In this document: positions 11,709 through 34,993 of the stretch, one piece after another
How the letters are laid out: every line of letters begins with the position of its first letter
Numbering within the stretch: position 1 is the stretch's first letter
Assembly: GCA_016874845.1 (NCBI GenBank)
Contig: VGSZ01000015.1
Location: 1-39,547, forward strand
DNA: 39,547 nucleotides
DNA from: Deltaproteobacteria bacterium
GTDB lineage: Bacteria > Myxococcota > UBA727 > VGSZ01
Direction of reading: 5' to 3'
Notes under the pieces: model-generated
Told to the model about the DNA's origin: nothing
Database searches by the model: none
The model's input: the letters and a program-made list of their open reading frames with translations, nothing else
Translations under genes and position numbers: made by a program

Positions 11709-11875
11709 TGTCGGGCGGGCCAAGCGGTGCTCCTGCGAGAGACGATGGGGCGTGCGCGTCGCAGCGACGAGGACGTCGGGCGTGCGAGCCGCAGGAACAA
11801 ACCCCGGCGCCCCCATGCTGTCAAGGACGACGAATGACGCTGCTCCGCACATTGACACCACGGGGGGGAACGGCG

Positions 11876-25068: not shown

Positions 25069-25670
25069 GACGACGCCCCGCCGGTCGTCGTCAACGACGA
25101 CGGGGCAGTCGCTCGGCGCGCGAGCCACTCGCGGCGCATGTTGACGAACAGCAATCCCTGCTCGCGCGCATCGTCGAGGGCGACGTGGCTGTGGGTCGTC
25201 GCCGGGAACCAGCGTCGGGGCATGTACTGCTTCGTCGCGTCGCGGTAGCGGCCGCCAAGCAGGGCCATCGCCAGCGTCTTGATGTCGAGGGCCGAGTGCG
25301 AAAACGGGCTGCGTCCGGCGAAGCGGTGCAGGTACCAGTGCACGAACAGGTAGTCGAACGCCGCGGGGTAGCCGACGAACACCGGGCGCCCGGGCAGCGC
25401 TTCGAGCCAGCGAGCGTAGTCGGGCAGCGCGCTCTCGGGCGGGCGCGGCTCGCGGCGACACGCTTCCCAGGCGCGCGGCTGCGTCTGCCACCACACCATC
25501 GTTGCGGGGTGCCCGATGGCACCGGGCAGCGTCGTCAGGTTGGCGGTGAAGGCGCCGCACTCGCCGCCGTCTTCGTCGAAGGCCACCGACGCGAACGACA
25601 GCATCGAGTGCGGGCCGGGGATCGGACCGTCGGCCTCGACGTCGGTGGAGACGTAGATCTCGCGAGCCAT
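25065..25670 (-). CDS. DEDD-family 3'-5' exonuclease
   Basis: The 201-residue protein has the order of acidic residues expected for a DnaQ-like exonuclease: Exo [10 protein letters not shown] (Asp and Glu), Exo [15 protein letters not shown] (Asp) and Exo [16 protein letters not shown] (His and Asp), which makes it DEDDh-type. The intervening [12 protein letters not shown] also fits the fold. It acts on DNA or RNA 3' ends; no polymerase domain is attached. It overlaps fdhD by 4 bp and is divergent from the GntR gene, with 119 bp between the starts. A link with FdhD function is not obvious. Confidence 0.85.
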
Positions 25671-25769
25671 CCGCCAAGGCGTAACGCGTCTGCGTCACGC
25701 CGACCACTCTGTGGGCAAGGCAGACCGGCCACGCCGCGGGAGCCGAGTCCACCTTGATTGCTTCGTCTC

Positions 25770-25782
25770 ATGGTTCAACCAT
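25770..25782. promoter_or_regulatory. FadR-type operator upstream of the gntR gene
   Basis: ATGGTT-c-AACCAT is a perfect inverted repeat. Its core TGGTTCAACCA matches the TGGT-N3-ACCA pattern of FadR-subfamily operators. It ends 7 bp before the GntR ATG (25790) and would overlap a -10 region if TTGATT (25754-25759) is the -35, so negative autoregulation is likely. It could also act on the divergent exonuclease gene. Confidence 0.6.
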
Positions 25783-25789
25783 TTTCGGG

Positions 25790-26650
25790 ATGCGTGTCGC
25801 ACCTCTCTCCACCCGCGTCCTGCGGGTCGTCGCCCGTGTCGCCCACGGTGGCGCGGACGGCGCCACCGCTGGCGCGGCCTGTGCCGATGCCTTGCGCGCG
25901 GCAGTGCTCCAGCGCGCGATCCCGCCTGGCGCGCGGCTTCCGCCCGAGCGTGAGCTCGCTGCGCACCTCGGGTTCGATCGCGGCACTTTGCGCGCCGGGC
26001 TGCAGCGGTTGGTGGCGCAGGGCTTGCTTGTGCAACGGCAGGGGCGGGGTACCGAGGTACGCGAGTTCCTCGAGATTGGCGGCCTTGACCTCATCGCCCC
26101 GCTCGTGCGCGGTGCCGCCGCCGCCGCCGTCGCATCCCACGTCGCCGACCTCCTGCTTGTACGCCGACACCTCGCCGCCGCGGCGCTCGAGGCGCTGTGT
26201 GACCGGCCCGCGTCGTTGTCGTCGTGCGCGGCGGTGCAGGCGCGCGTCGACGCCTACGCCGCCCTGGTCGCCCGGCGGGCCGCGCTGTCGTCTGGCGCCG
26301 CCGCCGCCCACGCGGCGCCCATCGACGACGATGTGCTCGCCGCCGCCGACGTCGCGGTCCTCGCCGCCGTGGTCGCGGCCACCGACAGCGTCGTCTTGCG
26401 CCTCGCCTTCAACCCCGTGGCGACGGTGTTTGCGGCCTTGCCCGCGTTGCGCGCCGCCATCGTCGCTGACGCCGCCGACAGCGTCCCCGCGTACGCAGCG
26501 CTGTGCGCGTGGCTGCGCGCCCCGGATCGCCAAAACAGCGCCGCGATCCTCGCGCTCCTCTCGGCGCGCGACGCCGCCACCGTCGCGCGCGTCGCCGCTG
26601 CGGCGACCACCACGCGGCGGTCGCGCCCCGCGTCGCGGAGGCGACGTTGA
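25790..26650 (+). CDS. GntR-family (FadR-like) transcriptional regulator
   Basis: The 286-residue protein has an N-terminal winged helix at about residues 30-95: VLQRAIPPGARLPPERELAAHLGFDRGTLRAGLQRLVAQGLLVQRQGRGTEV is the classic GntR block. The C-terminal part is helical and Ala-rich, like FadR/FCD domains, but I see no conserved His ligands, so metal binding as in FCD proteins is doubtful. ATG 25790 is chosen over the TTG at 25754 because the operator lies between them. Its stop overlaps the TTG of the next gene (TTGA). That operon is damaged, so the regulator's targets may have been lost. Confidence 0.85.
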   Translation: MRVAPLSTRVLRVVARVAHGGADGATAGAACADALRAAVLQRAIPPGARLPPERELAAHLGFDRGTLRAGLQRLVAQGLLVQRQGRGTEVREFLEIGGLDLIAPLVRGAAAAAVASHVADLLLVRRHLAAAALEALCDRPASLSSCAAVQARVDAYAALVARRAALSSGAAAAHAAPIDDDVLAAADVAVLAAVVAATDSVVLRLAFNPVATVFAALPALRAAIVADAADSVPAYAALCAWLRAPDRQNSAAILALLSARDAATVARVAAAATTTRRSRPASRRRR

Positions 26651-27404
26651 CGCCACGGCCCGCCTTGTCGTTGCAGGTCGGTCTTGGCCGCGCGTTCGTC
26701 GCCGCCGCCCGGCGCCCTGCCGTCGCCGCCGTCCCTGAGCGCGCCATCGTGCTCGACCCCGCTGCCATCGACGTCAGGCTGCGCGCGCTGGCGGACGCAC
26801 GCGCGCGCCCGCCCCCGGGCGCCCTCGGTGAGGCCGTCGCCGCGGGCGTGCCCGTGCGTCTGTCCGGCCGGTGGCAGATCGCGCTCGAGGCGTCGGGCGT
26901 GCCGCGGTCCCCCGTCGGCTGGGACCGGGGCCGTTCCTGCTTGAGCGGCACCTTGTGCGCGCGCCGCTCCTCCTGCTCGACAGCAGCGCCGTGCCTGGCG
27001 ACCTGTCGGGGCTCCGGTCGACCACGAAGACGTTGATGCGACACCTGCTCGGCACCTTCCACGCGGGGGGGCGACGCCAACTGCGACCTTGAGATCCTCG
27101 CGGCCCGCGAGCCGAGCGCGCTCGCCACGCTGCGTGACGCCGGCGCCGCTGTCATCGATGGCACCCACCCATTCTCCGCGCGCTGGCGCGCGCGCTTTGT
27201 GTCTACGAAGGCGCCCACGAGGCCTTGCTCGCGCAGATCGACCGGGCGCTGCGCGGCGGGCTGCTCGGCGGGACCAACGACGGCCCCGACGTGTCGTTCT
27301 TCGCGTTCCTGCGCTTCTGCGCGCGCCAGCCCGAAGACGCGGTGGGCGTCGCCGCCGCATGGAGCGCCGGCCGCTATCGCGTCGATCACGGGCTCGCGCG
27401 ATGA
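26647..27404 (+). pseudogene. unknown protein, broken by about three frameshifts
   Basis: A coding signal continues across this interval only if the frame is changed. Reading starts at a TTG overlapping the gntR stop in frame 1 (LSLQVGLGRAFVAAARRP ... GWDRG). It moves to frame 3 near 26927-26931 (PFLLERHLVRAPLLLLDS ... LLGTFHAGG), back to frame 1 at the 7-G run 27065-27071 (GDANCDLEILAAREPSALA ... THPFSA), then to frame 3 near 27180 (LARALCVYEGAHEALLAQ ... RYRVDHGLAR) to the TGA at 27402-27404. The reconstructed ~250-residue product is not a family I recognise. Shifts occur at G-runs or CG repeats, so assembly or read error is an alternative to true decay. Confidence 0.6.
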
Positions 27405-28009
27405 CGACGGTGCTCGCTACGCTGCGCCGCCTCGACCGCGCCGCATTGTCTGCTCGCTTTGAGCAGGGGGCGCCGGTCGCGACGTCGGCGCTGGCCGACG
27501 CGCGTTGGCGCGGGTTCGTGCTCGGGCTGCCCGCCCTCGTCGAGCGCGTCCCGTGGTCCCTGTTCGCGAAGGACGTCGTCGTCGCCGCCGCCGGCGCCAC
27601 GGTGGGCTGGAACGTCCGCCTCGCGCAGCCCGCGGCGCGCGATCCCGGGACCCTTGGCTCGTCGCCGCGGTCGACCCGACAGCGCGCCGAGGGTGGCCCC
27701 GCGATCTTTGCGCCCTTGGTCGTCACTGACGACGCCGGCGCCGCCGTCCTCGACTACCGCGCGGCGCAGCAGCCGGCCTCGCTGGCGGCGCTCGCGTGGG
27801 TCTACGACCCCGTGGTCAAGCTCGACGTCGACGACGACGGGGGGCGGTGCTGCTTGGCGTGTCGCGCATCCACCTTCGCGGGGGATCGTCTCCGACCCCC
27901 CACGTGGTTCGCGCTCGGCCGCGCGGGCGACGTCTCGGTCGACGCGCGCGGGCCCGGGCTGGCCATGGTCCGCCGCCGGGCCACGCGTCCCGCCTCCGCC
28001 CCCGTGCGT
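27401..28009 (+). pseudogene. unknown protein, weakly GXWXG/DUF4334-like, frameshifted; 3' end unresolved
   Basis: The ATG overlaps the end of the previous gene (ATGA). The opening frame gives MTTVLATLRRLDRAALSARF, ARWRGFVLGLPALVERVP and WSLFAKDVVVAAAG. Protein-like sequence then seems to pass through another frame (LVAAVDPTARRG), return (PAIFAPLVVTDDAGAAVLDYR, LAWVYDPVVKLDVDDDGG), shift again (VLLGVSRIHLRGG) and return (FALGRAGDVSVDARG). Shifts fall near G/C runs, including GGGGGG at ~27840 and CCCCCC at ~27897. WRG near the start and VYDPVVKxDVDDD...LLG near the end recall GXWXG/DUF4334 proteins, a weak match. No stop fits before the opposing gene at 28100, so the end is a guess. Confidence 0.5.
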
Positions 28010-28099: not shown

Positions 28100-29107
28100 T
28101 CAGCCGCTGTCGCCGACGCAGCGAGGCGCGAAGTCGGCACACGCGCCATCGTCGTCACAGCGCCCGCTGCCGCACTGGGCGGCCCGCGTGCATGGTGCGT
28201 CGGCGGGCAGCAGCGCGACGCAGGTGCCGCCGGCGCAGAACGAGGCCTCGCAGTCGCTGTCGTCGACGCAGGCGGCGCCGATGCCTTCGAGGGCGACGCA
28301 GGTGCCCGACGCGCAGGCGGCAAAGTAGGGACAGCGGCGGCTCACGTCGCAGGCCTCGCCGACACCGACGACGGCGGGCTCGCGGCACACGCCGTCGTCA
28401 CCGCAGCGCGCGGGCAGCACACAGGGGACGCCGTCGGGGTCGCACGCCTCGTTTGTGCGCGGGCGGGCGACGCACACGTCGTCGTCGCCGCAGACGCCGC
28501 CGGGGCCGCAGGCGCCGTCGACGTCGGCGCTGCCGTCGCGGCAGCGCGCGCCGGCGGGCATCACGGTCTCGCAGGTGCCGCAGAACGACAGGTCGAGGGT
28601 GCAGGCCGTGCCTGGCGCGCATACGAAGGTCTCGACGTCGAGACCGCAGGCGCCGCCGGCGGGGACGTGTCCCTGCCAGACCCCGGCGCACGGCCCCTGC
28701 AGTTCGAAGAAGTGCTCGTCGCAGGCGACGTCTTGCAGGTGCGCGGCACAGCCCTGCAGTCCGGCGCGCGACAGCGACAGCAGGCCCCGCTCAGCGAGCG
28801 GCACAAAGCGCGGCTCGAACTTCGCCTCGCACGACGCTGGGAACGCTGCGCGACAGGCCTCGACATCGGCGACGTTCATCCGTCCGCAGCGGACGTAGAA
28901 CGGGCAGAAGACGTCGACGAGCTCCTCGCAGTACGACGTCGCCGGCAGCGCGTCGCTCTCGCCCTCGTCTTCGCCCTCGCCTTCGCCATCCCCGGGACCG
29001 GCGTCACGAGGGGGGGCGTCGAGGGGCGGCCGCGGCGCTTCGGGGCACGCGACGGCCCCAGCGGTCAGGGTGAGGACGAGCGGCAAGGCGCGGGTGACGA
29101 ACGACAT
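28100..29107 (-). CDS. secreted Cys-rich repeat protein (probable lipoprotein)
   Basis: The 335-residue protein has a signal ending TLTAGAVAC, which may be a lipobox or a type I site, and then an acidic GDGEGEGEDEGE linker. Residues ~60-130 are a helical domain with paired Cys (YCEELVDVFCPFYVRCG). From ~140 on it contains many short Cys-rich units such as VPAGGACGLDVETFVCAPG, CGDDGVCREPA, GAACVDDSDCEASFCAGGTC and PCTRAAQCGSGRC. These resemble the Dickkopf-like Cys repeats common in myxobacterial surface proteins. Function unknown. It is 42 bp downstream of the interrupted thrombospondin-repeat gene and probably in the same unit. Confidence 0.82.
   Translation of the reverse strand: MSFVTRALPLVLTLTAGAVACPEAPRPPLDAPPRDAGPGDGEGEGEDEGESDALPATSYCEELVDVFCPFYVRCGRMNVADVEACRAAFPASCEAKFEPRFVPLAERGLLSLSRAGLQGCAAHLQDVACDEHFFELQGPCAGVWQGHVPAGGACGLDVETFVCAPGTACTLDLSFCGTCETVMPAGARCRDGSADVDGACGPGGVCGDDDVCVARPRTNEACDPDGVPCVLPARCGDDGVCREPAVVGVGEACDVSRRCPYFAACASGTCVALEGIGAACVDDSDCEASFCAGGTCVALLPADAPCTRAAQCGSGRCDDDGACADFAPRCVGDSG

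Positions 29108-34029: not shown

Positions 34030-34993
<964 letters not shown>

Follow-up and report, generated by a model that had tools for sequence, protein, structure and literature searches.

Clustered frame changes in a GntR-led gene pair of a Myxococcota genome and their reading as probable recent decay

Away from the ends of a 39.5 kb contig assigned to the Myxococcota, two consecutive genes behind an unbroken GntR-type regulator fail to keep a single reading frame. This raises the question whether the genes are decaying in the organism or whether their frames were broken during sequencing and assembly. An initial annotation of this stretch had left operon decay and local read error side by side; we now prefer decay with moderate confidence and retain read error as the alternative. 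The window is the whole contig VGSZ01000015.1 of 39,547 nucleotides. Reading the region in each of the three forward frames gave the following features.

25754..26650, + strand: GntR-family regulator in one unbroken frame; 298-residue ORF, start uncertain within 25754-25844; PF00392
26647..27404, + strand: gene 1, broken, frames 0-2-0-2; recognized by homologs and by profile matches in three pieces
26898..26925, + strand: gene 1, first frame change, frame 0 to 2; CCCCC run within the interval
27060..27082, + strand: gene 1, second frame change, frame 2 to 0; at a run of seven G
27174..27189, + strand: gene 1, third frame change, frame 0 to 2; CG-alternating stretch without a long run
27401..27990 (end approximate), + strand: gene 2, damaged, frame 1 open throughout, stop lost; recognized by homologs, profile and coding signal
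27640..27695, + strand: gene 2, doubtful island out of frame; negative scores in all three frames, homology does not decide
27844..27902, + strand: gene 2, probable island out of frame, read in frame 0; bordered by GGGGGG and by GGGGG/CCCCCC runs
28100..29107, - strand: convergent intact neighbour, lipoprotein-like and cysteine-rich; homologs in G001 and G003

Layout of the locus and the broken frames

The regulator ORF belongs to the GntR family according to its match to the winged helix-turn-helix model PF00392, which scored 60.2 bits against a cut-off of 27 in Pfam. The domain covers ORF residues 44-102 as in GntR-family regulators, whereas the full-length NCBIfam subfamily models stayed far under their cut-offs. 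Gene 1 starts with a TTG that overlaps the TGA of the regulator (TTGA, 26647), and its end at 27404 overlaps the ATG of gene 2 at 27401 in an ATGA junction.

The frame entered at the start of gene 1 runs into a stop at 27036. A profile made from intact homologs matched gene 1 in frame 2 at 26910-27068 (43 bits), in frame 0 at 27082-27183 (9 bits) and again in frame 2 at 27189-27398 (59 bits); a further match, weak and in frame 0, lies at 26740-26802. Codon-usage scores agreed with these frames piece for piece. Gene 1 has three well-supported frame changes, and the earlier claim of at least three was borne out by the profile pieces and the codon-usage scores. A gene finder that allows for frameshifts, trained on 635 kb of this genome and subject to false positives in GC-rich DNA, placed four of its seven calls for the window between 26.6 and 27.2 kb. 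The statement that the rest of the window is free of breaks was nearly right: three isolated calls were obtained, at 11724, 25113 and 34226. The call at 25113 is a junction between two neighbouring genes. The lone call at 34226, within 34179-34993, adjoins a run of eight G (34212-34219).

Gene 2 was followed by a profile of 33 homologs in a single frame (frame 1) from 27419 to 27937, free of stops and with 81 bits. At 27844-27902 the conserved LLG-S---L-G motif was readable only in frame 0, in which a weak profile match was also found. The initial annotation had counted apparently four frame changes in this gene. The two that bound the segment at 27844-27902 are probable, but the two at 27640-27695 are doubtful and the count was overstated. 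Stop codons are absent from every forward frame between 27985 and 28325, the next one being at 28326; the coding signal fades near 27990, and 28100 marks the end of the convergent neighbour. Gene 2 is also unusually diverged, and a paralogous copy was not found elsewhere in this genome.

Homologous operons and the proteins they encode

An intact homologous operon, which the initial annotation had proposed for comparison, was found in eight genomes (L111, L113, L131, L134, L149, L156, L170 and L181), mostly Myxococcota. All eight have GntR followed by gene 1 and then gene 2, each gene occupies one frame, and the overlaps are mostly of four bases. The view that the start/stop overlaps mark a once tight operon is therefore well supported. 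Because of these operons in other genomes the intact architecture must be real, with the frames of the window as the exception. Homologs sharing the broken frame structure, which had been named as evidence against the original reading, were looked for, and the homologous operons proved to be single-frame.

Gene 1 and gene 2 were present in three further loci (L114, L128 and L152), and GntR with gene 2 but without gene 1 in six (L123, L126, L135, L142, L145 and L160). Querying related genomes with the pieced protein returned gene 1 in five others and gene 2 in eight others. A gene 2 profile scan of 84,980 species, one genome each, gave 72 loci, mostly from Myxococcota MAGs. At L110/L047 (G040 contig C1460, 2996-3755) the GntR gene is spread over two frames with genes 1 and 2 intact; according to its title the contig has a coverage of 0.91, and the split is likely a read error. 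Two loci (L049:7321-8343 and L050:7632-8573) carry a gene 2 with an extra C-terminal part of about 130-150 residues that is missing from the operon type. At this GC content tblastn without composition correction produced masses of spurious hits, so that homology rests on composition-corrected or profile results. A DNA-level search in relatives was set aside, the matches being short, GC-rich and due to chance only.

The operon was not detected in the congeners G001 and G002, which are 95-96% complete, and gene 1 was not found in G003. Since neither congener yielded it and G003 yielded no gene 1, the operon appears dispensable. G001 and G002 do carry the exonuclease neighbour, but no homologs of the regulator, gene 1 or gene 2 were found in the stretches retrieved around it.

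Neither of the two genes, nor their intact homologs, matched a Pfam or NCBIfam model, and sequence searches of the PDB gave no matches. The gene 1 family comprises proteins of about 220-250 residues that are predicted to be all-helical. The model of a gene 1 homolog was all-helical (pLDDT 92), and a fold search with it gave no convincing match in the PDB. An intact gene 2 homolog was modelled as a barrel (pLDDT 93) that is weakly lipocalin-like; the best Foldseek hit had an E-value of 1.8e-3 and a TM-score of about 0.42. In many Myxococcota loci (L123, L126, L142, L145, L160 and others) gene 2 overlaps by 4 bases the gene downstream of it; these downstream genes fall into one protein cluster, of which the one scanned member is a GMC oxidoreductase. 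This conserved pair often occurs without gene 1 or GntR. Gene 2 may have a ligand-binding or accessory role.

Decay weighed against error and recoding

The reading that we favour is a recent pseudogenisation of the GntR-led gene pair. Both genes are intact in the eight operons of relatives and disrupted here in comparison with them, gene 1 by its three changes and gene 2 by the island and the lost stop. Conserved sites are also missing from the unbroken pieces of gene 2 (12 of 27 and 9 of 19), more than in the other 11 copies. For gene 1 the first piece lost 14 of 23, and in its first two pieces, though not in the last ones, the loss of conserved sites exceeds that of every other copy. Genes 1 and 2 of the window have the longest branches among the 12 copies, a count that includes residues near the frame junctions. 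Part of this divergence may be lineage-wide, as the GntR protein of the window is also the most diverged in its comparison set. Under the decay reading, the dispensable operon would first have lost its use. Indels of one base, arising mostly where polymerases may slip on G/C runs, would then have broken gene 1 at three places and shifted one short segment of gene 2 in the living cell. Gene 2 would in addition have lost its stop codon, with the regulator still open.

The third-position GC content of the two genes is 0.89 and 0.90, compared to 0.90 genome-wide, and no true nonsense codons were seen in either. Any decay must therefore be young, with neutral change of at most about 5% under a simple mutation model. 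The young pseudogenes of Salmonella (Kuo and Ochman 2010, PMC2916853) resemble this locus in being intact in relatives, in their small indels and in their intact flanks. In that set a premature stop was present in 131 of the 346 pseudogenes with a single lesion, and more than one lesion occurred in 32 of 378 (PMC2916853), whereas here several indels occur with zero nonsense codons. Because the Salmonella pseudogenes mostly have a single lesion and many have nonsense codons, five frame changes without nonsense form an odd mix. The alternating signs of the frame changes also speak against decay, which does not predict them.

A local read or assembly error is a possible but less probable explanation, and the weighting of the two is a matter of judgement. 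The organism would then have unbroken genes, and uncorrected single-base indels at G/C runs would lie in a stretch of about 1 kb of the contig. Homopolymer indel errors in draft assemblies likewise cause single-base frame changes at such runs and leave coding bias untouched, and the locus has indels only, no nonsense codons and a fully kept coding bias. G/C runs of at least 5 coincide with four of the five well-placed changes, and for such runs the region is in the 99th percentile; the split regulator of L110 indicates that such errors exist in this kind of data. The association with runs fits decay and error alike. However, across the 635 kb sampled from the 5.6 Mb genome frame breaks were near zero, runs included. 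All 47 ABC-transporter matches were without internal stops, and none occurred among the kinase matches listed; together these unbroken domains amount to roughly 49 kb with about 0 breaks, whereas the locus has 5 in 1 kb. The density of frame breaks at the locus is thus above chance. Inside other genes 87 of 92 G/C runs of at least 6 had no nearby frame change and 5 of 92 were near a call, compared to 2% of control positions; in the region all three such runs coincide with a change. Unlike homopolymer errors in general, the breaks are confined to one locus and the other sampled runs are nearly all in frame. The local GC content is high rather than extreme (89th percentile), and frame-change calls were related to GC at a loose threshold (p 0.006) but not at stricter ones, for which reason GC drop-out was rejected as the cause of a read-error patch. 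The lost stop would moreover need a further hit within just three bases.

Recoding is very improbable. Under this reading the genes would still work, through programmed frameshifting or through slippage at G/C runs that yields a full-length product, and it is consistent with the return of the frame after each island and with the G or C runs, six and seven long, found at the changes. Programmed frameshift genes (PMC3711429) also have frame changes within one coding sequence, but here slippage would be needed at several different sites one after another, no stop lies close to the end of gene 2, and the eight single-frame operons show that the change is not conserved; programmed frameshifting was rejected on this last ground. 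That the two genes are merely chance open frames is hardly credible: GC-rich DNA does give many spurious ORFs, and spurious matches if composition is not corrected for, but the profile matches of 59, 43 and 81 bits occur in the right order and in a conserved operon context.

Two other sites in the same genome were noted. Behind an intact ArsR-like regulator lies a second cluster of frame changes (L061:14026-15562; G000 contig C3, about 34.0-35.6 kb), with pieces that by eye resemble an efflux adaptor and an outer-membrane channel and that had no match in Pfam. Its alignment covers only the C-terminal part of a frame that is open over 605 residues in G001, with a further gap of some 270 bases. 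Since it is truncated in this way, single-base read errors do not explain it, and it looks like true decay, which counts in favour of decay at the GntR locus too. The other site (L057:10220-10432; G000 contig C1, about 30.2-30.4 kb) is an out-of-frame island, about 70 codons long and compensated, within a gene that otherwise stays open; its GC content is 0.80 and it adjoins a run of seven G.

Meaning for annotation and for the gene families

For annotation the locus calls for caution, as automatic gene callers will put spurious ORFs here. The comparison also reveals two families of proteins that lack a model, together with a regulator-led operon that is conserved. Whether the intact form represents an undescribed GntR-linked two-protein cassette, made up of a helical protein and a lipocalin-like barrel protein that in other loci stands beside a GMC oxidoreductase, widespread in Myxococcota and here in the process of loss, is in our estimate an evenly balanced proposition.
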